From an uncultured Pelagibacteraceae bacterium (GTDB taxonomy: Bacteria > Pseudomonadota > Alphaproteobacteria > Pelagibacterales > Pelagibacteraceae): a stretch of 33,418 nt of DNA. Both the position numbers and the translations under genes were made by a program. The notes beneath the pieces are model-generated. The model was not told the DNA's origin. It made no database searches and saw nothing but the letters and a program-made list of their open reading frames with translations. The first letter of the stretch is position 1. Every line of letters starts with the position of its first letter. Positions 11,569 through 33,418 of the stretch are shown in pieces. The stretch is from NCBI GenBank assembly GCA_902572515.1, contig CACGGJ010000013.1, positions 1 to 33,418 on the forward strand. The letters run 5' to 3'.

Positions 11569-11612
11569 GGAAGTATCTTATAGCGAATAAAAAAAGAATT
11601 GAAAAGGATTAA

Positions 11613-11912: not shown

Positions 11913-11918
11913 GAAGGT

Positions 11919-12659: not shown

Positions 12660-12681
12660 AATTGACTTTTTAATCTATAGA
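12653..12681 (+). promoter_or_regulatory. Candidate promoter for ppiD-trp, sharing a palindromic -10 with tpiA
   Basis: TTGTCA (5 of 6 to the -35 consensus), a 17-base spacer and TATAGA (4 of 6 to the -10). The -10 sits in the perfect 12-base palindrome AATCTATAGATT (12672-12683), so TATAGA is read on both strands; a weaker TTGATC lies 15 bases upstream of it for the tpiA direction. Predicted leaders are about 28 bases for ppiD and about 8 for tpiA. In such AT-rich DNA chance matches are common. Confidence 0.4.
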
Positions 12682-12715
12682 TTTGTTTTTTACAGATCAA
12701 TAAATTTATAACGTA

Positions 12716-15594: not shown

Positions 15595-16160
15595 TGAAAA
15601 TATTATTAATAGATAATTACGATAGTTTTACTTTCAATTTGTATCACTATATCTCCTCATTAAACACAACCGTTGATGTTGTTAGAAACGATAAAATTAA
15701 TTCAAAGGAAATTAAAAAAAAGAAATATGATAAAATAGTAATTTCACCTGGTCCAGGTAATCCGAATCAATCCGGAAACTGTATTAATATTTTAAAGTCT
15801 TTACATAATGAACTACCTTTTTTGGGAGTTTGTCTAGGACATCAAATTATTGGTCAAGTTTTTGGTTCAAAGATTATCCAAGCAAAGAAACTAATGCATG
15901 GAAAAACAAGTAAAATAAAATCAAAAAAAATTGGTATCCTTAAAAATCTTCCAAGTACTTTTGAAGCTACCAGATACCATAGTTTAGTAATTGATAAAAA
16001 AACACTTTCTCAAGACCTAACAATAACAGCAGAGACTGAAGATGGAGTAATAATGGGTGTTCAACATAAAAAATTCAATATTCATGGTGTACAATTTCAT
16101 CCTGAAAGTATTAAAACTAAATTTGGGATGAAAATACTAAAAAACTTTATAAATTATTAA
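15594..16160 (+). CDS. trpG: Anthranilate synthase component II (glutamine amidotransferase)
   Basis: Small subunit that hydrolyses glutamine and channels ammonia to TrpE; in some bacteria the same protein also serves PabB. 188 residues, class I amidotransferase: LLIDNYDSFTFNLYHY at the start, ISPGPGNPNQSG oxyanion region, nucleophile Cys80 in GVCLGHQ, and the His/Glu pair in VQFHPES. No fusion to TrpE or TrpD. Coupled to trpE by a 1-base overlap and followed 4 bases later by trpD. Confidence 0.95.
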   Translation: MKILLIDNYDSFTFNLYHYISSLNTTVDVVRNDKINSKEIKKKKYDKIVISPGPGNPNQSGNCINILKSLHNELPFLGVCLGHQIIGQVFGSKIIQAKKLMHGKTSKIKSKKIGILKNLPSTFEATRYHSLVIDKKTLSQDLTITAETEDGVIMGVQHKKFNIHGVQFHPESIKTKFGMKILKNFINY

Positions 16161-16164
16161 ATTT

Positions 16165-17157
16165 ATGGATCAAATTTTAGACAAATTAAAAAATAAAAAA
16201 AATTTAACTTTTGAAGAAAGCAAGTCTGCATTTGAAATTTTAATGACTGGAAAAGCCAGTGATGAACAAATTTTTAGCTTTCTAACACTGTTGACTGAAA
16301 AAGGGGAAGTTGCCGATGAAATAGCTGGTGGTGTTTTTGTATTAAGAGAAAAATCAAAAAGAGTGAATGTAAATGATTGTATTGATACTTGTGGAACAGG
16401 TGGCGATGGTATGAACACGCTTAATATTTCAACAGCTTCTGCGCTACTTTTAGCTAGTATGGGCACAAAAGTAGCCAAACATGGAAATAAAGCTGTTTCT
16501 TCAAAGTGTGGGTCTGGTGATGTTTTGGAAGCTCTTAAAATTAAAATTAATTTAGAACCACAAGATATCGAAAAAGAAATTAATGCTAATAATTTTGGCT
16601 TTATGTTTGCACCAAATTACCATAGTGCAATGAGATTTGTTGGACCCGTCAGAAAAAAAATTGGAAAAAGAACAATTTTTAATATGATTGGCCCATTAAG
16701 TAATCCAGCTCTTGTAGAAAGACAAGTTATCGGCGTTTTTGATAAAAAATTACTTAAAATATTTGCAGAAGGACTTAAAAATTTAAATTTAAAATTTGCT
16801 TGGATAGTAAATAGTGAAGATGGTTTAGATGAAATATCTCCGTATGCAAAAACCAATGTTGTTCAATTAAAAGATGGTCATATATCTGAAATTGAAATAG
16901 ATCCAAATTCATTAGGAGTAAACGGAGATAATTTTAAAAATTTGGTAGGAGATGATGCAAGATTTAATGCTGAAAAGATGATTCAAATATTTAAAGGTGA
17001 AGATAATGATTTTTCAAAAGCTGTTTGTTTAAATGCTGCAGCAGGTCTAATTGTTGGAGAAAAATTCTCTGAATTTTCTCAAGCTTATAATCACACAAGA
17101 GAATTTATCCTTTCTGGAAAAACTTTTTCACATCTAGAAAAAATTCAAAATGTCTGA
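16165..17157 (+). CDS. trpD: Anthranilate phosphoribosyltransferase
   Basis: Transfers phosphoribose from PRPP to anthranilate. 330 residues, normal length. Hallmarks: DTCGTGGDGMNTLNISTA (PRPP loop), AKHGNKAVSSKCGSGDVLEAL, FMFAPNYHSAM and GPLSNPA, with the late ENDG-type region reading SEDGLDEIS. Its stop overlaps trpC by 8 bases, making translational coupling likely. The trpF, trpB and trpA genes needed to finish the pathway are not in this window. Confidence 0.96.
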   Translation: MDQILDKLKNKKNLTFEESKSAFEILMTGKASDEQIFSFLTLLTEKGEVADEIAGGVFVLREKSKRVNVNDCIDTCGTGGDGMNTLNISTASALLLASMGTKVAKHGNKAVSSKCGSGDVLEALKIKINLEPQDIEKEINANNFGFMFAPNYHSAMRFVGPVRKKIGKRTIFNMIGPLSNPALVERQVIGVFDKKLLKIFAEGLKNLNLKFAWIVNSEDGLDEISPYAKTNVVQLKDGHISEIEIDPNSLGVNGDNFKNLVGDDARFNAEKMIQIFKGEDNDFSKAVCLNAAAGLIVGEKFSEFSQAYNHTREFILSGKTFSHLEKIQNV

Positions 17158-17941
17158 AAATATACTTCAAAATATAATTAAAAAAAAAATTGAAAAAGTT
17201 GAAAAATTAAAAAAATCCTTAGATCTTAAAACTTTGGATGAATTAATTCATAAAAATAACAAGTATATCAATTTTAAAGAGAAAATAGAAAATAATATAA
17301 AAAATAATAAAACTTCAATTATTGCTGAAATTAAAAAAGCAAGTCCTTCGGCAGGTATAATAATAGATGATTATAACCCAGTAGATATCGCTCAAATTTA
17401 TTTAAATAATAAAGCAACTTGTCTTTCAGTTTTAACCGAAGAAGATTATTTTTTAGGAAATTTAATTCACATCAGTAAAATAAAAGATAAAATTAATTTA
17501 CCTGTATTGTGTAAAGATTTTTTTATCGATAAATTTCAAATACCTTTGGCAAAAAGCTATGGCGCAGATGCTATTTTAATTATTTTAGCCGGGGTTTCAG
17601 ATAATCTTGCTTCTGAATTATACGATGAGGCTTTGAAATACAATATGTCTGTTATAGTTGAAGTTCATACAGTGGAAGAAGCAAAAAAAGCTTTGAATTT
17701 TAAAGATGCATTAATTGGAATAAACAATAGAAATTTAAAAACTCTTAAAACTGATATAAATACAACTTATGATATTTATGATGTTATAAAAAATCATAAA
17801 GGTCCTTTAATATCTGAAAGCGGAATTAAAAATAAAGAAGATTTGTTAGAACTAAATAACAAAACATCAATTAACACTTTTTTAATTGGTGAATCACTTT
17901 TGAAAAATTTAGATAAAAATTCTATTTTTTCTGTTTTATAG
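17150..17941 (+). CDS. trpC: Indole-3-glycerol phosphate synthase
   Basis: Ring-closing decarboxylase of tryptophan synthesis, a TIM barrel. 263 residues. Conserved blocks: IIAEIKKASPSAGII (catalytic Glu/Lys and phosphate site), VLCKDFFID, YGADAILIILA, VIVEVHT, IGINNRNLKTLK and LISESGI. Not fused to TrpF. Last gene of trpEGDC; 89 bases follow before lexA, the longest gap in this run. Confidence 0.95.
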   Translation: MSENILQNIIKKKIEKVEKLKKSLDLKTLDELIHKNNKYINFKEKIENNIKNNKTSIIAEIKKASPSAGIIIDDYNPVDIAQIYLNNKATCLSVLTEEDYFLGNLIHISKIKDKINLPVLCKDFFIDKFQIPLAKSYGADAILIILAGVSDNLASELYDEALKYNMSVIVEVHTVEEAKKALNFKDALIGINNRNLKTLKTDINTTYDIYDVIKNHKGPLISESGIKNKEDLLELNNKTSINTFLIGESLLKNLDKNSIFSVL

Positions 17942-17991
17942 CTAAATAAAGCCCTATTTTACTTGTTTTTTTTAGTATTGTTAATTTAAAA

Positions 17992-18028
17992 GAACTTTTA
18001 TAGAACATTATTTGTACGATATTTGTTC
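17992..18028 (+). promoter_or_regulatory. LexA operator: four half-sites spaced by 11 bases
   Basis: GAAC at 17992, 18003, then GTAC at 18014 and GTTC at 18025, each separated by exactly 7 bases. The first pair is a perfect GAACN7GAAC, the reverse complement of the alphaproteobacterial SOS box GTTCN7GTTC; the second pair, GTACN7GTTC, is one mismatch from it on the other strand. A TATAGA -10-like element (17999-18004) overlaps half-sites 1 and 2, so bound LexA should block its own promoter. The last half-site ends 2 bases before the lexA ATG. Confidence 0.8.
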
Positions 18029-18030
18029 TT

Positions 18031-18708
18031 ATGCTAACAAAAAAACAAAAAAACCTACTTTTATTTATCAACAAGAAGTTGAGAAGTTCAGGCGTATCTC
18101 CCTCATATGAAGAGATGAAGCAATCTCTAAATTTAAAATCTAAATCAGGTATTCATAGATTGATTAGTGCTTTAGAGGAAAGAGGTTTTATTAAAAGACT
18201 AGCTCACAAAGCAAGAGCATTAGAGGTAATTAAATTGCCAGAGACCGCTTCTGCTAATGATATTTATAATAGCTTTTCACCAAGTGTAATTAAAGGTGGA
18301 TTAGATGAAGAACAAATTAATTCTGATGAAATTGAAGTTCCTGTTCTTGGAAAAATTGCTGCAGGAACTCCTGTTGAAGCAATACAAAATGAGGTTTCTA
18401 GAATTCCTTTGCCAAATAATTTAGAAAAAAATGGAGATTACTTTGGATTAAAAGTTCAAGGTGACTCCATGATAGATGCTGGTATTCATGAAGGTGATAC
18501 AGTTATTATAAAAAGAACTGACACTGCAGATAATGGTAAAATTGTTGTTGCATTAATTGATGAACATGAGGCTATGTTGAAAAGAATTCGAAAAAAAGGC
18601 AAAGTTGTAGCTCTTGAAAGTGCTAATAGAAACTATGAAACTAAGATTTTTGGACCTGATAGAGTAAAAGTGCAAGGAGTTTTAGTATCTTTATATAGAA
18701 ACTTCTAA
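18031..18708 (+). CDS. lexA: SOS repressor LexA
   Basis: Repressor of DNA damage genes, self-cleaving when RecA filaments form. 225 residues. N-terminal winged helix-turn-helix (1-70) is of the alphaproteobacterial type, with SKSGIHRLISALEERGFI (37-54) as recognition region. A linker leads to the S24 peptidase domain: scissile bond A111-G112 in GKIAAGTP, catalytic Ser146 in QGDSMIDAG and Lys184 in AMLKRI. All autocleavage residues are intact. The start is fixed by the conserved MLTKKQ N-terminus, leaving no room for a normal ribosome binding site beside the operator. comEC and the moa genes often found nearby in alphaproteobacteria are absent. Confidence 0.96.
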   Translation: MLTKKQKNLLLFINKKLRSSGVSPSYEEMKQSLNLKSKSGIHRLISALEERGFIKRLAHKARALEVIKLPETASANDIYNSFSPSVIKGGLDEEQINSDEIEVPVLGKIAAGTPVEAIQNEVSRIPLPNNLEKNGDYFGLKVQGDSMIDAGIHEGDTVIIKRTDTADNGKIVVALIDEHEAMLKRIRKKGKVVALESANRNYETKIFGPDRVKVQGVLVSLYRNF

Positions 18709-18730
18709 AAAAATAGTCTAAACAACATTG

Positions 18731-20131
18731 ATGTCAAAAGTAGCAACACGTTTTGCACCGTCCCCTACAGGAGCTCTTCATATTGGAGGAGTTAGAACCG
18801 CCTTATTTAATTGGTTATTCTCAAAAAATCAAAAAGGAACTTTTCACCTTAGAATTGAAGATACCGATAAAGAAAGATCTAAAGACGAGCATAAAAAACA
18901 GATTATTGATTCTTTAAAATGGCTTGGTATTGAGCACGATGGAAATGAATACATTCAATCAAGTAAAATAAATGATCATATTAAGGTTGCAAACGAATTA
19001 CTTAAAAATGGTAATGCTTATAAATGTTATTGCTCAGCAGAAGAAATAGAAGAGCAAAAGAAAAGAGCTAAACAAAAAAAACTTCCTTATATCTACAATA
19101 GAAAATGGAGAGATATACCAGAGTCTGATGCTCCTGAGGATATAAAACCAGTAATAAGATTTAAAAGTAAAATAGAAGGATCAACAGTACTTAAAGATTT
19201 GGTTCAAGGTGATATTGAAATTGAAAATAATACAATTGAAGATTTTATAATCTTAAGAAATGATGGCACACCGACATATAATTTGTCTGCGACTGTAGAT
19301 GATCATATAATGAAAATGACACATATAATTAGAGGAGATGATCATAAAATTAATACATTTAAGCAAATGCAAATTTATGGAGCAATGAAATGGGATTTAC
19401 CAAAGTTTGCACATATACCTCTTATTCATACAATAGAAGGTAAAAAATTATCGAAGAGAGATAATGCGTCAACATTAGATGATTATTCTAAAATTGGCAT
19501 AATGCCTGATGCATTAAGAAATTATTTACTTAGATTAGGTTGGTCTTATGAGGATAAAGAAATATTCACTTTAGATGAGAGTATAAAACACTTCAACATA
19601 GAAGGTATAGGGAAGTCACCATCTAAGTTAGACATGAGTAGAATTTTATCAATGAATGAGCATTACATTAAAAATATTGATGAAAATGATTTATTCAATC
19701 AACTAACTGAATACTGTAAATTATATAAAAGTGAAATTAAGCCAGATAAAAAAGATAAAATAAAAAAATCTTTAACTTTTTTAAAGAATAAGGCAAAAAC
19801 ATTAGAAGATATATTTAATAACGGTCAATATATTATTGTGGATAAAGTAAATTTTAATCAGGACGATATTAAGTTAATTGATGATAAAGCTAAGAAAGTC
19901 ATTTCTGAATTTACTACTGAATTTTCTACCATTGATAAAATGAGCAAAGAAGCTTTAGAACCAATAGTAAATAAGCTAATTAAAACAAACGATACAAATT
20001 TTAAAGGTGTTGGACAACCTTTAAGAATAGCTTTAACAGGATCAAAATTTGGACCTGGAATATATGATATAATTATTTCTCTAGGAAAAGAGGAAGTAAC
20101 AAAAAGATTAACTAATAAGAAACTTAGTTAA
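18731..20131 (+). CDS. gltX: Glutamyl-tRNA synthetase
   Basis: Class I aminoacyl-tRNA synthetase charging tRNA-Glu (possibly also tRNA-Gln if the organism uses GatCAB). 466 residues from ATG; a TTG one codon upstream is possible but less likely. Motifs: RFAPSPTGALHIGGVRTALFN (HIGH region), RIEDTD, RNDGTPTYN, HIIRGDDH and the KMSKS equivalent KKLSKRDNAS. The C-terminal anticodon-binding helices run to the end. Its last 24 bases overlap the convergent lpxB gene inside a palindrome that carries both stop codons. Confidence 0.96.
   Translation: MSKVATRFAPSPTGALHIGGVRTALFNWLFSKNQKGTFHLRIEDTDKERSKDEHKKQIIDSLKWLGIEHDGNEYIQSSKINDHIKVANELLKNGNAYKCYCSAEEIEEQKKRAKQKKLPYIYNRKWRDIPESDAPEDIKPVIRFKSKIEGSTVLKDLVQGDIEIENNTIEDFIILRNDGTPTYNLSATVDDHIMKMTHIIRGDDHKINTFKQMQIYGAMKWDLPKFAHIPLIHTIEGKKLSKRDNASTLDDYSKIGIMPDALRNYLLRLGWSYEDKEIFTLDESIKHFNIEGIGKSPSKLDMSRILSMNEHYIKNIDENDLFNQLTEYCKLYKSEIKPDKKDKIKKSLTFLKNKAKTLEDIFNNGQYIIVDKVNFNQDDIKLIDDKAKKVISEFTTEFSTIDKMSKEALEPIVNKLIKTNDTNFKGVGQPLRIALTGSKFGPGIYDIIISLGKEEVTKRLTNKKLS
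20108..20131. terminator. Palindrome spanning the gltX and lpxB stop codons, candidate bidirectional terminator
   Basis: Perfect 8-base arms TTAACTAA (20108-20115) and TTAGTTAA (20124-20131) with an 8-base loop. Each arm contains one gene's TAA stop, and both genes end in AGTTAA (Ser-stop). On the lpxB transcript the stem is followed by UCUUUUUG, a short U-rich run, which favours an intrinsic terminator in that direction; on the gltX side no U tract follows. The stem has only one G-C pair per arm, so stability is modest. Confidence 0.45.
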
Positions 20132-21244
20132 TACTACGGCAGCTTCATCAGATGATGAAGTTTTTGATCTAATTTTAGTTAAAGTTTCTTCACAATCACT
20201 AATTTGTTTTTTCATTAATTCTGGATTTTTTAAAAAGTAAACAACAGAATTATAAATCTCTTTAGAATTACACTCTTTTTGTATTAATTCTGGAATTATT
20301 TCTTTGCTATTAATAATATTGATAATGTTAGCAAATTTAATTTTTACTAACATTTTGACAATCAAAAAATTTAAAAAATTCATTTTATAGATAATTATAG
20401 AGGGAACTTTTGCATTACAAATTTCAAGAGAAATTGTTCCAGATTTTGAAACTGCAAAAATAGAATTATTCAATATTTGTTTTTTTATATTTTCATCAGA
20501 AATAACCTCAACATTTTCTAAATTGCTTTTATTAATTTTTACATTAATTAAATTTTTATTTTCATCAGTAGCATGAAAAACAAAAGTGAAATTGTCAAAT
20601 TTTCTATTCATTAGATTTATAAAATCAATCAAGATTGGCAATAGTAAATTTACTTCAGATGATCTACTGCCACAAAAAAGAGAAATAATTTTTTTATCAC
20701 TTGAAATAATACTAGATAGATCTGTTCTATTTTTTGTTTCTTGTTCTAATAATGGGTGGCCAACAAAAGTATTTGGAATATTTTCTTTATCAAAATATTT
20801 TTTTTCAAAATCAAATAATAACAAAATATGATCTATAAACTTTTTAATTTTTTTTACCCTACCCTCTCGCCATACCCACACTTGGGGAGCCACATAATGA
20901 ACGGTCTTGATCCTATTATTTAATTTTTTAACTTTTTCAGCAACTCTTAATGTAAAGTCAGGACTATCTACACTAAATAAAATATCAGGATTAAATTTTA
21001 TAATCTCTTCTACGGTTTTATTTATTTTATTTTTAATTTTAAAAATATTTAACAAAACACTTGTAAAACCAATGTAGGTAATTTCTTTAAGATCAAAAAT
21101 AGATTTTATTCCTAATGAATTTAAATGTGTTCCGCCGACACAAGAATATTCAATATTAGGATCATTTTTTTGAAGTTGAGATATGACTTTAGAAGCAAGT
21201 TTATCTCCGGAAGGTTCTCCAGTTAGTATAAAAATCTTTTTCAT
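20108..21244 (-). CDS. lpxB: Lipid-A-disaccharide synthase
   Basis: Glycosyltransferase (family GT19) joining lipid X and UDP-2,3-diacylglucosamine, on the cytosolic face of the inner membrane. 378 residues. Diagnostic N-terminus ILTGEPSGDKLASKV, then SVDSPDFTLRVA, HYVAPQVWVWREGR, FVGHPL, FCGSRSSEV, and the C-terminal SKSGTISLE. Its ATG overlaps the stop of lpxI (ATGA), so its translation may depend on ribosomes finishing lpxI, which carries an internal stop codon in this sequence. Confidence 0.95.
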   Translation of the reverse strand: MKKIFILTGEPSGDKLASKVISQLQKNDPNIEYSCVGGTHLNSLGIKSIFDLKEITYIGFTSVLLNIFKIKNKINKTVEEIIKFNPDILFSVDSPDFTLRVAEKVKKLNNRIKTVHYVAPQVWVWREGRVKKIKKFIDHILLLFDFEKKYFDKENIPNTFVGHPLLEQETKNRTDLSSIISSDKKIISLFCGSRSSEVNLLLPILIDFINLMNRKFDNFTFVFHATDENKNLINVKINKSNLENVEVISDENIKKQILNNSIFAVSKSGTISLEICNAKVPSIIIYKMNFLNFLIVKMLVKIKFANIINIINSKEIIPELIQKECNSKEIYNSVVYFLKNPELMKKQISDCEETLTKIRSKTSSSDEAAVVLTKFLIS

Positions 21245-22035
21245 ATTACAGAGATAAACATCCTATTTTTGTTAGCAAAGTTAATACATTTGTTTTTATC
21301 TAAAAAAACATGTTTCTTATTTTTAACAACAATACCTTTTAATCCAGCAATTTTACATTGTTTAAAAGTCTTTAATCCAATAGTAGGAAGATCAATTCTA
21401 AGATCTTGTTTCTTTTTTGGAAATTTTACTAAAACGCCATGATTTCTAAATTTTTTACTTCTACTTTTTTCAAGCATTTTTTTGGTTCCACCCTTTCCTT
21501 CAATAGAAACTATCTTTTTATTCCTAGCTACAACACCTTGACTAAAATTGTATTGTCTTAAAGTATTTAATGTTTTTATTGCTTTTTTAATATCTATGTA
21601 ATCTTACTTGCTTGGTTTAACCTTTGAAAAATTTCCTTTCTTTAAGGATAGTTCGGGATTAAATTTTAGTGAATTTTCAGTTTTAATATTATTTTGAGCT
21701 AATATTTTAATAATTTCTTTAAGTATAGCGGCGTCTCCAAGCTTTGAGGCTTTGATTATTCTAGGAATATAATAAATTCCTTTTAAATCTAATTTCAATT
21801 TAGAAAAATTTGGTTTATTTACTTTTCCAGCAAATAAGACTTGTTTACATTTATTTTCTTTAAGAATGTTAATAATTTTACCAAACTGACCTATGGATAC
21901 CGCGTAAGATTTTTTATCTTTTTTAAATTTCTTTGATTTTGATAGATCAACTATCAAATACTTTATTTTCTTTTTTTTGATAGTTTTTAAAATTTCCTTT
22001 GGAAAATCAGTTTCACCAAAAATTAATCCTATCAT
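21241..22035 (-). pseudogene. lpxI: UDP-2,3-diacylglucosamine pyrophosphatase LpxI, interrupted by an in-frame TAA
   Basis: LpxI (DUF1009) cleaves UDP-2,3-diacylglucosamine to lipid X in lipid A synthesis, replacing LpxH in most alphaproteobacteria. Without the stop, the frame has 264 codons, near the family's usual 270-280. Codons 1-143 begin MIGLIFGETDFPKEI and include QVLFAGKVNKPNFSKL and KLGDAAILKEIIKIL. A TAA at 21604-21606 follows KVKPSK, yet the same frame continues with DYIDIKKAIKTL, QGVVARNKKIVSIEGKGGTKKML and a good C-terminus (DLPTIGLKTFKQCKIAGLKG). No base is gained or lost, so this is a single nonsense change or base error, not a frameshift. Neighbours lpxA and lpxB are intact. 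Confidence 0.85.
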
Positions 22036-22036
22036 T

Positions 22037-22813
22037 TTATGAAAATGGTGTGCAAATAGATCTTTTTTTATCTTTTGTTATAAAATCAATTACATTTTTA
22101 ATTAACGGATTTTCTTGTAATGAACCATTTAATTTACTTAAATTTTCAATAATATTCTTTGATGCAAATATTTCTTTATAAGCTTCACTTAACTCTAAAA
22201 TATCCTTATTTTCGAACTTGGCTCTTCTTAAACCTATTAAATTCAATCCTTGTAATGAATTTCTATTTCCTGTTGATAATCCATATGGAATTACATCATG
22301 TAATACACCTGTCATCCCACCAATCATTGCCATTTTTCCAATTCTAGTAAATTGTTGAACGGCAGAATTTCCACCAATCACTACATTATCCTCAATGATT
22401 GCATGACCACCTAAAGGCACATTATTTGCAATTATTACATTATTTCCAACTTGGCAATCATGAGCTATATGTGATGAAATCATAAATAAACAATTATCTC
22501 CAATTATTGTTTTACCGCCACCACCTGCTGTTCCAGGATTAATTGTTACGTATTCTCTGATTTTATTATTATCACCAATTACTAAATTTGTATTTTCCCC
22601 ATTGTATTTCAAGTCCTGGGGATCGTTAATTGAAACGAAAGGATAAATCTTATTTCCTTTTCCAATTTTGGCACTTACAGAAATATTAACATGGGATTGA
22701 ATGATAGTGTTCTCGTTAATTTCAACATTAGGACCAATTACGCAATATGGACCAATTTCAACATTCGAAGCAATTTTTGCTTTTGAATCAACTATTGCAG
22801 TTTTGTGAATCAT
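22037..22813 (-). CDS. lpxA: UDP-N-acetylglucosamine acyltransferase
   Basis: First enzyme of lipid A synthesis, moving a 3-hydroxyacyl chain from ACP to UDP-GlcNAc. 258 residues; the body is a left-handed beta helix of hexapeptide repeats (IASNVEIGPYCVIGPNVEIN and similar), followed by a C-terminal helical region (about 190-258). The catalytic His lies in SSHIAHDCQVG, followed by IANNVPLGGHAIIED and IGGMTGVLHDVIPYG. Its ATG overlaps the lpxD stop, so fabZ is not between lpxD and lpxA as it is in E. coli. One base separates it from lpxI. Confidence 0.95.
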   Translation of the reverse strand: MIHKTAIVDSKAKIASNVEIGPYCVIGPNVEINENTIIQSHVNISVSAKIGKGNKIYPFVSINDPQDLKYNGENTNLVIGDNNKIREYVTINPGTAGGGGKTIIGDNCLFMISSHIAHDCQVGNNVIIANNVPLGGHAIIEDNVVIGGNSAVQQFTRIGKMAMIGGMTGVLHDVIPYGLSTGNRNSLQGLNLIGLRRAKFENKDILELSEAYKEIFASKNIIENLSKLNGSLQENPLIKNVIDFITKDKKRSICTPFS

Positions 22814-23790
22814 TTATTTTCCTTAATAAATCTTTTTAAATCTTTAGCTGGATACCCCATAACTTTAGAGTTGTCAGGTACATCTTTAATCACTCCTGAA
22901 CCACCACCTATTTGAACATTGTTTCCTACTTTCAAATGTCCTGATATTCCTGCTTGTCCACCAATCATAACATTATTTCCAAGGGTAGAGCTTCCAGCAA
23001 AACCAACTTGACCAGCAATAATACAGTTTTCACCAATTTTGTTATTATGAGCTATATGTATTTGATTATCTAAGAAAGTATTTTTTCCAATTATTGTATT
23101 TGATAAAGAACCTCTATCAATTGTTGAGCCACAACCAATCTCACAATTATCCTCAATTATAACAATACCAATATGAGGATAACGTATATTTCCATTCTTA
23201 CTTGGGAAAAAACCAAATCCTTTTTTTCCAATAACACAACCATCTAATATTGAAACATTATTTTTAATTATTGTATTTCTAATAATAACATTGGACCCAA
23301 TTGAGCAGTTATCACCAATAACAACATTGCTTTCAATGATTGTGTTGTGACCAATTAAGCAGTTTGATCCAATTTTAAGATTTTTTCCGACTAATACATT
23401 TTGACCATGATTTACAGCATCATTATAAGAAGTTTTTTCAATATTCAGGGTATGAATGTCAAAATCATCTGTAATAGCATCAGGATAAAACATTGTTGTA
23501 ATCATTGAAGTTGATACAAGAACATTATCAACTTCTATTGGTATGCAGGTATCAGGTAATTTGTTAGATAAATTTTTTGTAGTAATACAAAAAGCTGCTT
23601 TTGTTTTTGAAGCGGCTAATTCATATTTTTTAGAATGAAAAAAAGTAATATCTTTATCTGATGCGTTAACAAGATCTTTAATATCAGAAATTTTTATTCC
23701 ACTATATCCAGATTTATTTTGAAATTTGATTTGAGCTAAAATCTCTTCGATTTTTTTTGGACCTTTATTTTCAAAAAAAGGATTAATCAT
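22810..23790 (-). CDS. lpxD: UDP-3-O-acyl-glucosamine N-acyltransferase
   Basis: Third lipid A enzyme, N-acylating UDP-3-O-acylglucosamine. 326 residues: N-terminal uridine-binding domain (1 to about 105, with KDITFFHSKKY and ITTKN blocks), then a left-handed beta helix of hexapeptide repeats (about 118-300) with IDRGSLSNTIIGKNTFLDNQIHIAHNN split around the catalytic His region, and a short C-terminal extension ending in MGYPAKDLKRFIKE. Full length and intact. Preceded by 53 bases and then the fabZ remnant, so its normal upstream genes are cut off by the junction near 23,925. Confidence 0.95.
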   Translation of the reverse strand: MINPFFENKGPKKIEEILAQIKFQNKSGYSGIKISDIKDLVNASDKDITFFHSKKYELAASKTKAAFCITTKNLSNKLPDTCIPIEVDNVLVSTSMITTMFYPDAITDDFDIHTLNIEKTSYNDAVNHGQNVLVGKNLKIGSNCLIGHNTIIESNVVIGDNCSIGSNVIIRNTIIKNNVSILDGCVIGKKGFGFFPSKNGNIRYPHIGIVIIEDNCEIGCGSTIDRGSLSNTIIGKNTFLDNQIHIAHNNKIGENCIIAGQVGFAGSSTLGNNVMIGGQAGISGHLKVGNNVQIGGGSGVIKDVPDNSKVMGYPAKDLKRFIKENK

Positions 23791-23843
23791 TAATTGCTTT
23801 TTATCAAAACAATTCTTAAATACTTATCAATAAATATTACTAA

Positions 23844-23927
23844 TTATTTTCTATCAACAATTGTAGCTGACCATTGAGCATCAGCCATTTTTTTTCCTTC
23901 TACAAAAGCTTCTCCTTTATATTTCCA
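23844..23927 (-). pseudogene. fabZ: 3' remnant of fabZ (3-hydroxyacyl-ACP dehydratase)
   Basis: Only the last 27 codons are recognisable: WKYKGEAFVEGKKMADAQ, then WSATIVDRK and TAA. This matches the C-terminal strand of FabZ (pattern WKF.G.A.VDG...AEA..SAMIVD). Upstream of the Trp codon the frame loses FabZ similarity and soon hits a stop, because the DNA switches to plus-strand lolC. FabZ supplies unsaturated acyl-ACP in fatty acid synthesis and is commonly encoded with the lpx genes. The stop lies 53 bases before the lpxD start. The assignment rests on a short stretch. Confidence 0.75.
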
Positions 23928-23940
23928 AAACCTTACGATA
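23918..23940. other. Head-to-head junction between truncated fabZ and truncated lolC
   Basis: To the left the minus strand reads the end of fabZ; to the right the plus strand reads lolC from its middle. Neither gene has its 5' part here. Similarity to FabZ stops at about 23,927 and a LolC-like frame starts within a few bases of it. This is either a chimeric join or a genuine rearrangement breakpoint. Confidence 0.75.
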
Positions 23941-24935
23941 AACCGTTAGCTTCCTTCTCAGATAAAGATTTTGTTAAAGGCGTTTTATCAAATGACGGAG
24001 AAGCAGTTATTTTTCACAAGAATGGCACTAAAGGAGTTTTGCTAAAAGGTTATTTGGAAAAAGATTTTAAAGATCTGGAAATTTCAAATAATGATAGTTT
24101 TTTTGGTTCTAAAAATTTAAATGAAAATTCAATTTCTATTGGTCGAGACTTAAGCAATATCTTAGGATTAGATATTGGAGATGAGGTTTCAATTACTTCA
24201 CCCTCAGGAGTTCAAACGTTAGTTGGGTCTTTACCAAAGCAAAAATTATTTCTAATAACTTCAATATTTGAAAGTGGATTATCAGAATATGATGAAAATA
24301 TTGCTTATATAAATTTAAACACTTTAGACGATTTTTTTGACAAAAATAAAAATGATAGATTTACCGAGTATTATTTTATAGATCCAAAAAATATAGAAAA
24401 TCATAAAGAAAAACTGATGAAACTATACCCCGATGCATTTGTATATACATGGGCCGATATGAATAGTTCATTATTTTCAGCACTTAAAGTTGAGAGAAAT
24501 GTGATGTTTATTATTTTATCTTTAATTGTTATTGTTGCTGCTTTTAATATAATTTCAGGTTTAACAATTTTAGTTAAAAATAAAACTCGAGATATTGCAA
24601 TTTTAAAATCTATTGGGGTCTTAAATAAATCAATTGTTAAAATATTTTTTCTTGTTGGAGTTTCAATTGGAACTTCAGCAACAATTTTTGGAATATTTTT
24701 AGGTGTAACATTCTCAATTTATGTAGAAAACATTAGACAATTTTTAAGCTCTACTTTTAATATTAGTTTATTTCCAGAGGAAATATATTTTTTAAGCAAG
24801 ATGCCCTCAGAAATAAATATTAATTCTATAGTAATTATAACAATCTGTTCAATATTAATAACAATAGTAGTTTCTATATTTCCAGCACTTAAAGCTGCAA
24901 ATATGGATCCTATAAAATCACTGAAGTATGAATAA
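23925..24935 (+). CDS. lolC: Lipoprotein-releasing permease LolC/LolE family, 5'-truncated
   Basis: Inner-membrane subunit of the LolCDE ABC exporter that releases lipoproteins to LolA. About 336 codons remain: most of the periplasmic domain, then three membrane spans (around plus-strand positions 24,500-24,570, 24,640-24,730 and 24,820-24,890) and the family ending FPALKAANMDPIKSLKYE. Compared with the usual 400-415 residues, some 70-80 N-terminal residues with the first membrane span are missing. The frame runs on upstream to a TTG at 23874, but that part is merely the antisense of the fabZ remnant. No promoter or start is left. Overlaps lolD by 8 bases. Confidence 0.85.
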   Translation, partial: PKPYDKPLASFSDKDFVKGVLSNDGEAVIFHKNGTKGVLLKGYLEKDFKDLEISNNDSFFGSKNLNENSISIGRDLSNILGLDIGDEVSITSPSGVQTLVGSLPKQKLFLITSIFESGLSEYDENIAYINLNTLDDFFDKNKNDRFTEYYFIDPKNIENHKEKLMKLYPDAFVYTWADMNSSLFSALKVERNVMFIILSLIVIVAAFNIISGLTILVKNKTRDIAILKSIGVLNKSIVKIFFLVGVSIGTSATIFGIFLGVTFSIYVENIRQFLSSTFNISLFPEEIYFLSKMPSEININSIVIITICSILITIVVSIFPALKAANMDPIKSLKYE

Positions 24936-25605
24936 TTTTTTAGAATTAATTAATATACGAAAAAGTTTTACTTCGGAAAAAAAAATTAATGTATTAAGAG
25001 GTCTATCTAGAAAATTTAGGTTAGGTAAAACTTACGCAATAATGGGACCTTCTGGATCTGGAAAATCAACTTTACTTAATTTAATTTCTTTAATTGATAA
25101 ACCAACATCAGGTATCATTAAGTTTGATAATCATGTGATAAATTTCAGTCAAAATGAAAAAAATGATTTACTTAGATCTAAAAGAATAGGTATTGTTTAC
25201 CAAGAAAATAATCTTCTTTCTGATTTTACAGCATTGGAAAATGTTTATTTTGCTTCTTTATCTCTTAATAATGACAAAAAATTAGCATTATCTAAAGCTG
25301 AAAAATTATTAAAAAAAATTGGACTTTCAAACCGATTAAATCATTTTCCCTCGCAACTTTCAGGAGGTGAAGCTCAAAGAGTTGCAATAGCAAGAGCGAT
25401 TATTAATGATCCTCAAATTATTTTAGCTGATGAACCAACTGGTAGTTTAGACATGAATACGGCTAAAGATATTTTTAAACTTTTAAACAATCAAAAAAGA
25501 TCAGACAGAATAATTATATTTGCAACTCATAATAGATTTTTTGCAAAAAAAGCAGATTATCTGTTGGAGATGAGAGATGGTAGTATAAAATCATCTAATG
25601 TCTGA
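24928..25605 (+). CDS. lolD: Lipoprotein-releasing ABC transporter ATPase LolD
   Basis: Cytosolic ATPase of LolCDE. 225 residues, complete: Walker A GPSGSGKST (40-48), Q loop VYQENNLL, signature LSGGEAQRVAIARA, Walker B IILADEPTGSLD and the switch His in IFATHN. The MacB/LolD subfamily is indicated by the adjacent LolC-type permease. It overlaps both neighbours by 8 bases (ATG inside the end of lolC; dnaE ATG inside its own end), so with lolC broken its expression signal is unclear in this sequence. Confidence 0.95.
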   Translation: MNNFLELINIRKSFTSEKKINVLRGLSRKFRLGKTYAIMGPSGSGKSTLLNLISLIDKPTSGIIKFDNHVINFSQNEKNDLLRSKRIGIVYQENNLLSDFTALENVYFASLSLNNDKKLALSKAEKLLKKIGLSNRLNHFPSQLSGGEAQRVAIARAIINDPQIILADEPTGSLDMNTAKDIFKLLNNQKRSDRIIIFATHNRFFAKKADYLLEMRDGSIKSSNV

Positions 25606-28600
25606 ATCTGTCTTACAAAATTTTAATCATTTAAAAATTCATACCCAATATTCAATTTGCGAAGGAGCTGCTAGAATTGATGATTTACAAGAATATTCTA
25701 AGAAAAATAAAATTAAATCCTTGGGTTTATGTGATACCTCAAATTTATGTGGTGCACTAGAATTCTCTGAAAAGATCTCAAAATCTGGTACTCAACCAAT
25801 AATCGGAACTCAAATAAATTTTAAAATCGGAGAAACAATAGGTTTACTCCCTTTGTTTGCTCTTAATGAAGCAGGATATAAAAATATAATAGAACTTTCA
25901 TCTTTATCGTATTTGGAAAACGATGAATTGTCAGATCCACATGTAGATTTTGAATTATTATTAAGCAATTCCAAAGGTGTTGCTGTATTTTCAGGAACTG
26001 TTTTTGGTTTATTTGGTAAATTATTTGATAAAGGAAAGCTTAGTGAAATTGATAAGCTTTATAATAAAATTAAAAATGCTTTTGATGATAGATTCTACTT
26101 AGAGATTCAAAGACATAATGATCAAAATGAAATTGGATTTGAAAAATTTAACTTAAAAAAATCTTTAGATTTGGAAATACCTATTATTGCAACTAATGAA
26201 GTTTTTTATTTAGATAAAGAAATGCATGAAGCTCATGATGCTTTAATTTGCATCGGTAACAAGACATATGTAAATGAAAAAAACAGATTAAGATTTACTG
26301 ACCAACATTATTTAAAAACTAACTCAGAGATGTCTGAATTATTTGTTGACTTGCCTGAAGCTTTAGAAAACAATTATAATTTTCCACTAAGATGTACTTA
26401 TAGACCATTATTTTCTAATCCAATATTACCTAATATTAGCAGTGATAAAGATGGAAATGCAGATGAAATTTTAAAAAAAGATTCAATAGAGGGATTAAAA
26501 GTCAAATTCAATAAGATTTTTAATTTAAGTGATGAAGACTTAGAAAATAACAATTCTTATAAAGAATATAAGAACAGACTTAATCATGAACTTTCTATTA
26601 TTGTAGAAATGAAATATTCTAGTTATTTTCTTATAGTTGCTGACTATATAAAATGGGCTAAAAATAATGATATCCCTGTAGGTCCTGGAAGAGGCTCAGG
26701 TGCTGGCTCATTAGTAGCTTGGTGTTTATCAATTACAGACGTCGATCCAATAAAATTTAATCTTATTTTTGAAAGATTTTTAAATCCAGATAGAATTTCA
26801 ATGCCAGATTTTGATATAGATTTTTGTGAGGATAAAAGAGATAAAGTTTTTGAGTATCTAACAACAAAATATAAAGACAGTGTAGCTCATATTATAACAT
26901 TTGGTAAATTAAAAGCACGAATGGTAATTAGAGACGTTGGAAGAGTTTTGGGATTAGCATATGGATTTGTTGACAGCATATCAAAGATGATACCTTTTGA
27001 TCCATCTAGACCACAAAATTTAACTCAGTGCATTGCTGGGGAGCCACGATTACAAAAACTCATAAATGATGATCCAAGGGTAAAGAAACTTACTGATCTC
27101 TCACTAAAATTAGAAGGTCTAAATAGAAATGTTGCAACACATGCAGCTGGAGTGGTAATAGCAGATAAAAAACTCACTGAAGTTGTTCCTTTATATAAAG
27201 ATATTACTGCAGATTTATTGTTACCATCTACTCAATTCGACATGTACTCTGCAGAAAATGCAGGTTTAGTAAAATTTGATTTTTTGGGTTTAAAAACACT
27301 TACAGTAATTAACAATACGCAAAAACTTGTAAGAAAAAAAATTAAAGATTTTGATATAGAAAAAATAAGTTATGAAGATCAAGAAGTTTTTGATCTAATG
27401 TCAACCGGTAAAACAGTTGGGTTATTTCAAATTGAAAGTGCTGGTATGAGAGAAGCCTTAATTCAAATGAAGCCAAATCATATTGAAGATATTATTGCAT
27501 TAGTTGCCCTCTATAGACCAGGACCAATGAGCAATATTCCAACTTATAATGATTGTAAACATGGAAAGCAAAAACCAGATTATTTACACCCACTTCTAGA
27601 AGATATTTTAAAACCAACTTACGGTGTGATTATTTATCAAGAACAGGTAATGCAGATTGCACAAAAATTATCGGGATTTACAGCAGGACAAGCTGATCTT
27701 TTAAGAAGAGCAATGGGTAAAAAGAAAAGAGCGGAACTTGAAAAACAGAAACAAGTGTTTATTGCTGGAGCTGTTAAAAATGGAATAGCAAAAGATATTG
27801 CTGCTGGAATTTTTTTAAAAATTGAACCATTTGCTGAATATGGCTTTAATAAAAGCCATGCTGCTGCGTATGCAATTATATCTTATCAAACTGCATTTTT
27901 AAAAACATACTATCCAAAAGAGTTTATTGCAGCATCAATGACTATGGATATATCTAATCAAAATAAGTTAAGTGAATTTTACGAAGAATTAAAAAGATTA
28001 AATGTTGAAGTTGTTCGTCCCGATATAAATGAATGTTTTGAAGATTTTAGAACAATCGATAGTAAATTTTATTATGCATTAGGTGGCATTAAAGCTGTAG
28101 GTTTTGAGGCAATATCAAACATAGTTGAAGAAAGGATTTTAAATGGAAAATTTGAATCTATTCATGATTTTATAAATAGGGTAAATCCAAAAGATATAAA
28201 CAAACTTCAATTAGAAGGTTTAGTAAAAGCAGGAGCTTTTGATAAACTAAATATAAACAGACAAGCTTTATTTGATTCAATTCCAGCTTTAATAGCTAAG
28301 AATAAAAATATATTTGAAAACAAATCTGCTAATCAGATTGATTTATTTTTAGATGATGAAAATAACCAGGATGATATTTTAACCAAATCTGAAGATTGGA
28401 AATTTGAAGAAAGATTATCAAAAGAATTTGAGTCAGTAGGTTTCTTTATTTCAGACCATCCATTAAATCAATTTAAAGAAATTTTTGATGATTACAAAAT
28501 AACAGATTATTCAAATTTTGTTTCTAATGAAAGTTTAAAAGATTCAAATATTGCTGCAACATTATTGAAGGTTCAAGAAAGAAAAACTGCAAAAGGAACC

Positions 28601-29014
28601 TCATATGCTGTTTTAAAATTAACTGATTTATCAAGTGTATTTGAACTATTTATTTTTTCAGATGTATTAGAATTAAATAGAGAAATTTTGAAGGAGGGTA
28701 ACTCCCTCATTTTAACATTATTTAAAAATGTTTCTAATGATGAAAATCGACTTACTAGAATCAATGTTCAAAAAATAGCTTCACTTAAAGATTTATTTAA
28801 TAGTCCTATAAACGAGGCTTCATTTGAGATAAATTCTGAAAAACAGATTGAAACAATATCTAAAATTTTGAATGATGAAGGTAAAACTCTTGTAAATATT
28901 AATCTAGTTACAAAAGATAATATTCTTAAATTTAGATTAAAAAATAAACGAAAATTAGACAGAAAAGCTCTAAATCTATTAAGAAATCAAGAAATACAAG
29001 CAATAATTAACTAA
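25598..29014 (+). CDS. dnaE: DNA polymerase III alpha subunit
   Basis: Replicative polymerase of the DnaE1 type, 1138 residues (E. coli 1160). The N-terminal PHP domain starts FNHLKIHTQYSICEGAAR. The family C palm has GPGRGSGAGSLVAW, then MPDFDIDFCEDKRDKV near residue 405 (two catalytic Asp) and KFDFLGLKTL near 560 (third Asp). Next come ALYRPGPM, GVIIYQEQVMQIA, LRRAMGKKK and FNKSHAAAYA. The thumb/HhH region is around 820-880 (LQLEGLVKAGAFD) and the OB fold around 985-1060. Follows lolD with an 8-base overlap, a common alphaproteobacterial arrangement. Confidence 0.97.
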   Translation: MSESVLQNFNHLKIHTQYSICEGAARIDDLQEYSKKNKIKSLGLCDTSNLCGALEFSEKISKSGTQPIIGTQINFKIGETIGLLPLFALNEAGYKNIIELSSLSYLENDELSDPHVDFELLLSNSKGVAVFSGTVFGLFGKLFDKGKLSEIDKLYNKIKNAFDDRFYLEIQRHNDQNEIGFEKFNLKKSLDLEIPIIATNEVFYLDKEMHEAHDALICIGNKTYVNEKNRLRFTDQHYLKTNSEMSELFVDLPEALENNYNFPLRCTYRPLFSNPILPNISSDKDGNADEILKKDSIEGLKVKFNKIFNLSDEDLENNNSYKEYKNRLNHELSIIVEMKYSSYFLIVADYIKWAKNNDIPVGPGRGSGAGSLVAWCLSITDVDPIKFNLIFERFLNPDRISMPDFDIDFCEDKRDKVFEYLTTKYKDSVAHIITFGKLKARMVIRDVGRVLGLAYGFVDSISKMIPFDPSRPQNLTQCIAGEPRLQKLINDDPRVKKLTDLSLKLEGLNRNVATHAAGVVIADKKLTEVVPLYKDITADLLLPSTQFDMYSAENAGLVKFDFLGLKTLTVINNTQKLVRKKIKDFDIEKISYEDQEVFDLMSTGKTVGLFQIESAGMREALIQMKPNHIEDIIALVALYRPGPMSNIPTYNDCKHGKQKPDYLHPLLEDILKPTYGVIIYQEQVMQIAQKLSGFTAGQADLLRRAMGKKKRAELEKQKQVFIAGAVKNGIAKDIAAGIFLKIEPFAEYGFNKSHAAAYAIISYQTAFLKTYYPKEFIAASMTMDISNQNKLSEFYEELKRLNVEVVRPDINECFEDFRTIDSKFYYALGGIKAVGFEAISNIVEERILNGKFESIHDFINRVNPKDINKLQLEGLVKAGAFDKLNINRQALFDSIPALIAKNKNIFENKSANQIDLFLDDENNQDDILTKSEDWKFEERLSKEFESVGFFISDHPLNQFKEIFDDYKITDYSNFVSNESLKDSNIAATLLKVQERKTAKGTSYAVLKLTDLSSVFELFIFSDVLELNREILKEGNSLILTLFKNVSNDENRLTRINVQKIASLKDLFNSPINEASFEINSEKQIETISKILNDEGKTLVNINLVTKDNILKFRLKNKRKLDRKALNLLRNQEIQAIIN

Positions 29015-29067
29015 ATAATCGCTTGTTAAATATAGTAAATATTTGTAAATAATCTCTAAATTAAATT

Positions 29068-29144
29068 AACACGCACACAGTTGTTGGTTTTATACCTCCG
29101 GTCCTTAATTGGAAATTACTGTGGTGGCTTAACCGGGAATAAAT
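29068..29144 (+). ncRNA. Structured 5' leader of rpsB-tsf
   Basis: The 130 bases between dnaE and rpsB form the largest gap in the window, and their second half is far richer in G+C than the surroundings. CACAG (29076-29080) can pair with CTGTG (29119-29123), and CCGGT (29098-29102) with ACCGG (29132-29136); the two pairings cross, giving a possible pseudoknot. The second pairing would bury the GGGA that lies 6 bases before the ATG, suggesting autogenous control by ribosomal protein S2. From memory, an rpsB leader motif has been described by comparative genomics in Pelagibacter and other alphaproteobacteria; identity with it was not verified. Confidence 0.6.
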
Positions 29145-29963
29145 ATGAAAATACCTAACGTAACAATACAACAATTATTAGAAGCAGGCGTTCATCTTGG
29201 GCATAAAACTTTAAGATGGAATCCAAAAATGAAAAAGTATATTTTTGGAAAAAGAGATTCAATTCATATCATAGACTTAACGCAAACTTTGGAATTAACT
29301 AAAGTAGCTTTAGAAAAAGTTTATGAAACCATTGCAAATAATGGAAAAATTTTGTTTGTATCTACTAAAAAACAAGCATCAGAAGCTATTGCTGAAACTG
29401 CTAAAGAAACAGATCAATATTTTGTAAATTACAGGTGGTTAGGAGGAATGTTAACAAACTGGGGAACAATTTCAAATTCAATTAAAAAATTAAAAAAACT
29501 GGAAACTGATTTGGCATCGGAAAATAGAGGTTTTACTAAAAAAGAACTTTTAAAAATGAGTGTTAAAAAAGACAAACTTCAAAGATCATTGGGTGGTATA
29601 GCTGAAATGAAAAAAGTTCCTGATTTAGTGTTTGTTATTGATACAAATTATGAGTCTCTAGCTATCGCCGAATCCGCTAAATTAGGAATACCAATTATTG
29701 CTATTTTAGATAGTAACTCTAATCCAGATAATATTGATTATCCAATTCCAGGCAACGACGATGCAAGAAGAGCTATTGATCTTTATTGTAATTTAATAAA
29801 AGAAACCATTAATAGTGCTAAAAATTCTTCACCAGTTATAGAGTCAAAAAAAGATAATGCTAAGGACTCTAAAATCGAAGATAAAAAAAAAACTATTCAA
29901 GAATTAGATAGAGAAAAATTAGAAAAAAAATTTTCTAAAGAAGATAAGGAGAAATTAAATTAA
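29145..29963 (+). CDS. rpsB: Ribosomal protein S2
   Basis: Small-subunit protein, 272 residues. Core signature: [98 protein letters not shown] in consecutive blocks. Beyond the core (about residue 228) is a lysine- and acid-rich low-complexity tail, longer than in E. coli (241 residues). The start is fixed by the conserved beginning, and a weak GGGA lies upstream. First gene of rpsB-tsf-frr-uppS-cdsA-dxr. Confidence 0.97.
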
Positions 29964-30814
29964 TGAGCAATATAGAAAAAGTTAAAAAACTTAGAGAAGC
30001 AACTGGTGCTGGTTTTAAAGATTGTAACTTAGCTATTAAGGAGTCAAATGGAGATTTAGACAAGGCAATTGAAATCTTAAGAGTGAAAGGAATTTCAAAA
30101 GCATCAAAAAAAATGTCTAGAGATGCAAAAGAGGGAGTTGTCGTAGTTAGCGGAGACGAAACGAAAACCTCAGTGATAGAAGTAAATTGTGAAACAGATT
30201 TTGTTGCTAAAAACGATGATTTTATTAATTTTGTTAAAGAATTAAGTGAATTAAATAACGAAAATAATTCAAATATTGAAGAATTAAAAGTGGCAAAAAT
30301 GAAAAATGGTCAAAGTGTTGATGACAATCTAGTTGCTTTGATCGCAAAAATTGGTGAAAAAATTACAATTGGTAAAGCTAAAACTATTCAAAACTCAGAT
30401 TGTTTAAATAGTCATTATCTTCATACAGTTGTCAAAGACAATGTAGCAAAACTAGCAGTTATGGTTTCACTAGATACAAAGGATAATTCAGATACAGTCA
30501 AAACATTTAGCAAACAATTATCAATGCACATTGCTGCATCTAATCCATTAGCTTTGGAATCCACCTCTATAGAACAATCAATAATAGATAAAGAGCAAGA
30601 ATTAGTAACTGAAGAACTTAAAAATTCAGGAAAACCAGATGATATTGCAAAAAAAATAAGCTTAGGTAAGATGAATAAATTTAAAGAGGAAAATGCTCTT
30701 TTAACACAAGCTTGGGTTATGGAACCAAAGAAAAAAGTACAAGATGTATTAAAAGAATTATCTATAGCTGATTTAAAAATTAAAGAGTTTTATAGAATAA
30801 AGATTGGAGAATAA
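29963..30814 (+). CDS. tsf: Elongation factor Ts
   Basis: Guanine nucleotide exchange factor for EF-Tu, 283 residues. The N-terminal UBA-like domain has [17 protein letters not shown] and [12 protein letters not shown]; the core has [15 protein letters not shown] and [11 protein letters not shown]; the C-terminus includes [15 protein letters not shown] overlaps the rpsB stop by one base (TAATG), with GGAG about 12 bases before it. The next gene, frr, starts directly after its TAA; pyrH, which usually follows tsf in alphaproteobacteria, is absent. Confidence 0.97.
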
Positions 30815-31366
30815 ATGTTTGATGAGAAATCTTACAGCCTTAAAATGGATAAAGCCATTGAGGTATTCTCAAAAGAACTTTCATCTTTAAGAACTGGAAG
30901 AGCAAATGCATCAATGTTAGATCTGATTAAGGTTGATGTATATGGTCAGCAAATGCCAATCAATCAGGTAGGAAGTATAACAACTCCCGAACCAAGAATA
31001 ATTAATATTCAAATTTGGGATGCAAATAATGTTCCACTTGTTGATGCAGCTATCAAAAAATCAGATTTAGGGTTAAATCCACAAATCGACGGACAGTTAG
31101 TAAGATTACCTATACCTGAGCTTAATGAAGAAAGAAGAACAGAACTTAAAAAATTAATAAAATCAATTGGTGAAAAATGTAAAGTTTCAATAAGAAATAT
31201 TCGAAGAGAAGCCAATGAAGATTTGAAAAAACTTCTTAAATCAAAAGAAATAGGAGAAGACGAAGAAAAAACTCATGAAAAAAAAGTTCAAACTATCACA
31301 GACGAACATATAAAATCTGTAGATGACAAAGTTTCTTCTAAAGAAAAAGAAATAATGACAATATGA
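30815..31366 (+). CDS. frr: Ribosome recycling factor
   Basis: Splits post-termination ribosomes with EF-G. 183 residues, usual length. Conserved: MDKAIEVFSKELSSLRTGRA near the start, YGQQMPINQVGSI, the central loop GLNPQIDGQLVRLPIPELNEERR in consecutive blocks, and IRNIRREANEDLK in the helical bundle. ATG follows the tsf stop with no gap, and GGAG eight bases upstream is a good ribosome binding site. Its stop overlaps the uppS ATG (ATGA). Confidence 0.96.
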   Translation: MFDEKSYSLKMDKAIEVFSKELSSLRTGRANASMLDLIKVDVYGQQMPINQVGSITTPEPRIINIQIWDANNVPLVDAAIKKSDLGLNPQIDGQLVRLPIPELNEERRTELKKLIKSIGEKCKVSIRNIRREANEDLKKLLKSKEIGEDEEKTHEKKVQTITDEHIKSVDDKVSSKEKEIMTI

Positions 31367-32037
31367 ACCCTGTAAAACATGTAGCCATTATTATGGATGG
31401 TAATGGTAGATGGGGTTTAAAATATAAAAATTCAAGAAATGCCGGCCATAAAGAAGGGTTAAATACAGTAGAAAAAATAATTAAAGAAACAATTAAAAAC
31501 AAAATAAAATTTTTAACACTATTTGCATTTTCAACAGAAAATTGGAAAAGACCAAAAAAAGAAATAAATTATCTTTTTAACCTTCTTGAAAATTTTTTAG
31601 AAAATAGAATCTCAGATTTAAACAAGCAAAATATAAAATTGAAAATAATTGGTTTAAAGAATTTTTCGACAAATTTTAATCGACTACTTTCAAAATCTGA
31701 AAAAAAAACATCTAAAAATAGTAAATTACAAATTAATTTAGCAATAAATTATGGTTCAAAGTATGAGATAATAAACGCTTTTAAAAATTTGCAAAAAAAA
31801 AAAGAAACAATAAATGAGAAAAGTTTTGAAAAATATTTACTGACAAAAAACATACCAGACCCAGATATATTAATTAGAACTGGTGGAACGACAAGATTGA
31901 GTAATTTTTTATTATGGCAATTAGCTTATACGGAAATTTTTTTTGAAAGGAAACTATGGCCGGAATTTAACAATAATGATTATAGTAGAATAATTAAAAA
32001 GTTTAAAAAAATAAAAAGAAATTTCGGGAGTATTTGA
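31363..32037 (+). CDS. uppS: Undecaprenyl diphosphate synthase (cis-prenyltransferase)
   Basis: Adds isoprene units to farnesyl diphosphate to make the C55 carrier for peptidoglycan and LPS. 224 residues. Conserved: [13 protein letters not shown] (catalytic Asp), [30 protein letters not shown], and the C-terminal [20 protein letters not shown] followed by LWPEF. In that last block the usual GGE-H or GGE-Q is GG-T-T, so the positions matching E. coli Glu198 and His199 are both Thr, while the metal-binding Glu213 equivalent (AYTE) is kept. Sits between frr and cdsA as usual. Confidence 0.94.
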
Positions 32038-32702
32038 TGAATAACGAACTCACTAAAAGAGTAATTAGTTCAATTTTGTTATTGATATTATCTCTCTTTT
32101 TTATTTTTCAAGAATCAATACTGTTTATATTTTTTTTAGTTATTTTATTTTTAATAACTATATTTGAGTGGGTAAAATTATCTAAAAATAACCTTATATT
32201 ACTGTTATTGGGTTTTATTTTTTTATTAATATCTTTTTATTCAACTTTTCTACTAAGAAAAGATTATGGAATAAATATTCTTATCTTTATTTTGTTGATT
32301 TGTGCATCGACAGATATTGGTGGCTATCTTTTTGGTAAAATTTTAAAAGGACCAAAATTAACTAAAATTAGTCCAAACAAAACAATTTCCGGAACATTTG
32401 GAAGTTTTATTTTACCTTTAATTACTGGGCTAATATATAATTATTATTCAGAATTAAATTTGAATACTATTTTTGAAACCAGTACATTTGATTTATATAT
32501 AAAATTTAAAATTGAATTAATTTTAGTAGTTTTGGTAGTTTCATTAACAAGTCAAATTGGAGATTTAGTAATTTCTTATTTTAAACGTCTATCTAATTTA
32601 AAAGATACAGGCAAACTGTTACCTGGTCATGGTGGTTTATTAGATAGAATAGATGGTTTAATATTTGTTTTACCAATTTTTTTAATTTTTATTTTAAAAT
32701 GA
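32037..32702 (+). CDS. cdsA: Phosphatidate cytidylyltransferase
   Basis: Inner-membrane enzyme making CDP-diacylglycerol from phosphatidate and CTP, upstream of PgpA in phosphatidylglycerol synthesis. 221 residues from ATG, shorter than E. coli CdsA (285) but with several membrane spans and an intact signature near the C-terminus: [20 protein letters not shown] then GLLDRIDGL. The ATG was preferred over the TTG one codon earlier because GGGAG ends 6 bases before it. TGATG overlap with uppS; the stop overlaps the dxr ATG. Confidence 0.94.
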
Positions 32703-33418
32703 AAAAAAAAATTATCATTCTAGGATCAACTGGATCTGTTGGATCAAAAACATTTGAAATTTTTAAAAAAGATAAAAAAAATTTTAAGGTTATCCTTCTA
32801 TCAACGTATTCGAATGTTAACAAAATAATTAAGCAAGCTCAAATATTAAATGTTAAAAATATTATAATTAACGATAATGATGCTTATGTTAGGGCAAAAA
32901 AAAAATATAAAAATAGTAAAATTAAATTATTTAATGAGTTTAATGTTATCAACAAACTTTACAAATCAAAAGAAATTCATTATGCCATGGTATCTGTTTC
33001 AGGTTTGGCTGGTCTTAAGCCCACAATGCTTTTAGCTAAATACACAAAAAATTTGGCGATAGTAAATAAGGAATCTCTCATTTGTGGTTGGGATCTAATT
33101 AAAAAAAATTTAATTAAAAATAATACTAATTTTGTACCGATTGACTCAGAACATTATTCAATTTACAGTTTAATGAAGGGTCATAGTTATACAGATATTA
33201 AAAAAGTTTATATTACAGCATCTGGAGGGCCTTTTTTAAATTATTCTAAAAAAAAATTCAAAACAATTAAACCAAAAAATGCTTTAAAGCATCCTAATTG
33301 GAAAATGGGTAAAAAAATTACAATAGACTCCTCAACTTTAATGAACAAAGTATTTGAAGTAATTGAAGCAAAAAATTTATTTAATTTATCGTATAAAAAA
33401 ATATCGGTTTTAACTCAT
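32699..33418 (+). CDS. dxr: 1-deoxy-D-xylulose 5-phosphate reductoisomerase, partial (cut by the window edge)
   Basis: Second MEP-pathway enzyme, making MEP from DXP with NADPH. The first 240 codons are visible of about 385-390. NADPH-binding [16 protein letters not shown] at the start, [19 protein letters not shown], the metal-site block [13 protein letters not shown] (Asp and Glu kept; the Asn usual after SEH is Tyr), [29 protein letters not shown] in consecutive blocks, and [13 protein letters not shown] overlaps the cdsA stop (ATGA). Its product is the substrate of IspDF, encoded on the left side of the window. Confidence 0.95.

Follow-up and report, generated by a model that had tools for sequence, protein, structure and literature searches.

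A probable inverted amplification chimera joining broken fabZ and lolC genes in a Pelagibacteraceae contig

Chimeras arising during multiple displacement amplification (MDA) are predominantly inverted: in the study of Lasken and Stockwell (2007, PMC1855051), 406 of 475 chimeras had this geometry, 337 of the 406 spanned less than 10 kb, and complementarity was present in only 34.8% of the inverted joins beyond 10 kb. Another report (PMC4595205) places chimera distances mostly within 0-5,000 nt with an overlap mode of 6 nt, and a benchmark of the SCGC workflow (PMC11247762) gives an average of 1.5 misassemblies per 100 kb. The join described here lies in a window of 33,418 bp, the whole stretch of DNA that was analysed and the entire contig C13 of an assembly of 41 contigs (1,167,165 bp, 88.97% complete); there is no sequence beyond the right edge, because the window is the whole contig and ends inside dxr. 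At a break point at 23,928, two broken genes, fabZ on the minus strand and lolC on the plus strand, stand back to back with their 5' ends missing (Table 1). Apart from those for which a Pfam or NCBIfam match is cited, gene names were presumed from sequence and gene order, and relatives are denoted by handles, among them the nearest genome (G022) and a complete genome (G012).

Table 1. Coordinates of the join and of the features on either side of it in the window.
Feature	Position	Strand	Basis or remark
Left arm: lpx cluster (lpxB, interrupted lpxI, lpxA, lpxD), inverted relative to the right arm	20108..23790	-	tblastn against relatives
fabZ 3' remnant, 27 codons and stop	23844..23927	-	whole FabZ is 149 aa in G022
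Spurious 353-aa ORF, product of the join	23874..24935	+	ORF list; FtsX domain only
Join, 2-3 bp (AA or AAA) compatible with both arms	23927..23929	.	BLAST and ungapped alignments
lolC without its first 66 codons	23928..24935	+	plus strand, from the Lys codon at 23928
Right arm: lolD, dnaE, rpsB, tsf, frr, uppS, cdsA, in the usual order	24928..32702	+	ORFs, comparison with relatives
dxr, cut by the contig end after 240 codons (386 aa in G022)	32699..33418	+	ORF, comparison with G022

The position of the break was determined with ungapped alignments, in which the window follows fabZ of G022 and 15 other genomes as far as 23927-23929 and follows lolC at 38 close loci from 23928 onward, a few of these loci agreeing one or two bases sooner. 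When the window from 23600 to 24300 was compared by BLAST with 60 other genomes, partial matches were obtained in 33, the fabZ pieces that reach the join stopping at 23927-23934 and the lolC pieces beginning at 23927; no match in these 60 genomes extended more than a few bases past the join. A 34-mer spanning the junction had no exact match in genome_contigs, a collection that may omit records close to the source genome, and there is no run of N at the join. Judged on the alignments, the joining of fabZ to lolC is not due to chance. The earlier note, made from the letters of the window, had described 27 C-terminal FabZ codons on the minus strand ending abruptly at a Trp codon, and these lie exactly where it put them (23927-23844, followed by a stop, with the Trp codon at 23925-23927). 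Its claim that both genes lose their 5' ends at one point is borne out, alignment with the intact fabZ and lolC of relatives fixing the exact point at 23927-23929 with an overlap of 2-3 bp. The statement that LolC is entered well inside its periplasmic part has to be corrected, as the reading begins early, at residue 67 of 403; the lost N-terminus presumably contains the first membrane segment.

The join also creates a misleading open reading frame that opens, with a TTG start and 18 initial codons, in DNA antisense to fabZ. A gene caller applied to 23874-24935 on the plus strand would annotate LolC as a 353-aa protein that begins at a false TTG and carries 18 fabZ-antisense residues.

The normal form of the locus was established from relatives. 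In G012 and G024, tblastn gave a single-strand order of lolC-lolD-dnaE-rpsB-tsf-frr-uppS-cdsA-dxr-...-fabZ-lpxD, and G022 carries cdsA-dxr-bamA-skp-fabZ-lpxD on one contig. Of the 60 other genomes, seven (G005, G012, G018, G024, G025, G031 and G036) carry both halves, lolC and fabZ, on one contig, where BLAST places them 13-14 kb apart on one strand with lolC upstream of fabZ. The distance between the two break points is 13.06 kb in G012, 13.98 kb in G018 and 13.10 kb in G024, and the span in the source genome is estimated at ~13.07 kb, the sum of 9,491 bp present in the window and ~3,580 bp taken from G022. Additionally, a scan of 437 relatives with the LolC remnant kept 78 distinct loci, of which the 71 from Pelagibacteraceae and other alphaproteobacteria were examined and the seven from distant phyla (L111-L117) were left out. 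The LolC N-terminus lies directly upstream at all 71 loci, proS precedes lolC at 70 (the remaining contig begins at lolC), and a FabZ C-terminus was found at none of the 71. The same junction, which the earlier note had raised as the sign of a genuine arrangement, was thus found neither in the 60 genomes nor at the 71 lolC loci. The note had also taken the lpx genes to lie normally downstream of dxr in the same direction, which relatives confirm except for the rseP it inserted, G022 reading dxr-bamA-skp-fabZ; the lpx cluster of the window is, as it said, inverted and upstream of lolC, a strand layout opposite to that of relatives.

The order in G018 agrees with that of G012 and G024 except for lpxD (L026, G018:C2, 1734-3142), which lies upstream of fabZ there and downstream of it in G012, G022 and G024; this is perhaps a small natural change.

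Outside the join, the two arms resemble a single relative. The left arm (23,569-23,929) is 93% identical to G022 and the right end (32,014-33,418) 94%, which places the join within the genome of one organism; contamination by another species was ruled out on the same identities. The region 3,901-23,900 aligns as a single block to G012 and G009, and to G022 from the start of its contig. With this block intact and the right arm in its usual order, a scrambling of the whole window was also ruled out and, as far as sequence comparison goes, the window is collinear with relatives apart from the join. Within the left arm, an in-frame stop following codon 143 splits lpxI (21241-22035, minus strand) into ORFs of 143 and 78 aa; the gene is intact in relatives (264 aa in G022 and G029), and the split copy may represent either a true pseudogene or an amplification or sequencing error.

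The sequences expected beyond each broken end were then sought in the source assembly, where their absence is weak evidence because the assembly is only 89% complete. Neither the LolC N-terminus nor a second intact lolC or fabZ was found anywhere in it, proS was represented by nothing beyond one distant partial match, and the dxr 3' end, bamA, skp and the fabZ 5' end were not found. RNase J was not found either, and the 10 kb upstream of a close relative's lolC gave only chance-level matches, both in searches run without a positive control. A FabA/FabZ profile had one match in the source assembly, as opposed to two each in G012 and G022; this single match is a FabA-family gene on contig C10, found by the profile and missed by the FabZ query. 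A LolC/E profile matched once each in the source assembly (G000) and in G012, both times under the curated cut-off, and had no match in G022. The losses alone do not decide the nature of the join, since a true inversion would gather them into one gap, and in G022 as well the LolC/E profile found nothing.

A second inverted join was detected in the same assembly, near position 3,519 of contig C16 (G000:C16:1673-4478, L138), where a truncated gyrB faces a NAD-epimerase gene beside lepA. The GyrB encoded on C16 lacks the C-terminal DNA_gyraseB_C domain (PF00986) that is present in the GyrB of G012. In that complete genome gyrB and lepA are on one strand, the matches flanking the C16 join are 8.7 kb apart on opposite strands, and the sequence that follows gyrB corresponds to source contig C31, which starts 0.7 kb from the break. 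The surroundings of the C16 join are a variable sugar-gene region, whose other genes are placed in G012 by weak matches only (58-60%), leaving the second break point inexact; natural variation may account for some of the difference but does not readily explain a cut through gyrB. This join was the only further one cutting a gene that was taken up from a sample of 18 stretches of the source assembly (335,900 of 1,167,165 bases) compared with 820,000 of the 1,343,202 bases of G012, a comparison in which 168,015 bases aligned in pieces of at least 150 bp, paralogues included, and the strand pattern was judged by eye. Opposite-strand pieces in L124, L127, L130 and L137 (65-78% identity) were taken for weak matches to gene relatives, and none of L126, L131, L132 and L136 matched the compared part of G012.

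Combined, these results make it very probable that the fabZ-lolC join is an inverted chimera from phi29 MDA of a single cell that was kept in the contig. In one of two equivalent orders of events, a strand would have grown leftward through dnaE and lolD to codon 67 of lolC; its 3' end, freed by branch migration, would have paired through 2-3 A/T bases with a displaced 5' strand in fabZ, ~13 kb rightward in the same branched molecule or a different one, and would have been extended rightward through the fabZ 3' end and the lpx genes. The assembler would then have followed the chimeric molecule into the contig, seeing no fork because neither side's true continuation had been recovered. We infer both these polymerase steps and the origin of the source as an MDA single-cell genome. 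Names beginning with AG- or AH-, which we take to denote SCGC single-cell genomes, are carried by 61 of the 71 relatives examined, and some titles say MAG; if the source is such a genome, some 17 misassemblies would be expected at its size from the SCGC benchmark rate of 1.5 per 100 kb. The arms on opposite strands, their origin in one genome, the 2-3 bp overlap, the lack of any crossing match and the second inverted join all argue for the chimera. Against it, sequence dropout would be needed at both break points, where a simple inversion would need a single gap past the contig end; the ~13-kb span is greater than in most published inverted chimeras, and 2-3 shared A bases could easily be chance in AT-rich DNA.

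The alternative, that the ~13-kb segment lolC-dnaE-...-bamA-fabZ is really inverted in this cell and that lolC and fabZ are split by the inversion, is very unlikely, although one junction of a simple inversion with intragenic break points would look identical to that observed. Such an inversion needs a reciprocal junction (lolC 5' against fabZ 5'). None was found in the assembly, 89% complete, where it would fall in a gap ~3.6 kb past the right end of the contig, and the missing pieces would then make a single gap adjoining that end. It would also break two genes at once, both essential in E. coli; the FabA-family gene in the assembly means that loss of fabZ might be bearable, but lolC has one match, under the curated cut-off, in the complete G012. 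A cell-specific event of this kind, detaching the lolD-dnaE-rpsB-dxr-bamA segment in one SAR11 cell in which FabA takes over from FabZ, is given little credence, and the absence of the join from the 60 other genomes and the 71 lolC loci, as well as the second inverted join through gyrB, weighs against it. Least probable is a purely computational misassembly, in which contig ends were bridged over the 2-3 shared bases with no chimeric molecule involved. The tiny overlap and the missing true continuations are consistent with this, but there is no N run at the join, an overlap of 2-3 bp is normally too short for short-read assemblers to join on, and reads crossing the join probably existed, which points back to a chimeric molecule. 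The amplification chimera or misassembly already favoured from the letters of the window is supported by the gene order of relatives, the missing neighbours, the gyrB join and a geometry compatible with that of published MDA chimeras.

Overall, the join is most likely an ordinary assembly artefact, to be flagged rather than interpreted biologically. Contigs of this assembly should be used with caution as they carry joins that cut housekeeping genes; automatic gene calling would yield a LolC with a hybrid start and a shortened GyrB, and FabZ would seem to be absent. Claims of gene order or gene loss made from this genome should be compared with relatives first. A true inversion would mean that SAR11 tolerates breakage of a seemingly single-copy lipoprotein-export gene, which is unlikely.

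Set against the inverted MDA chimeras described in PMC1855051, the join differs in its span, which at ~13 kb exceeds the usual <10 kb, and in being known from an assembled contig alone, whereas the published chimeras were seen in reads. Its overlap of 2-3 bp is shorter than typical but falls within the 2-21 nt of complementarity given for MDA chimeras. In its remaining features the join is like those chimeras, as segments of the same genome are inverted relative to each other, both arms extend in the same direction from their break points, the intervening stretch is lost and a short complementarity marks the join.
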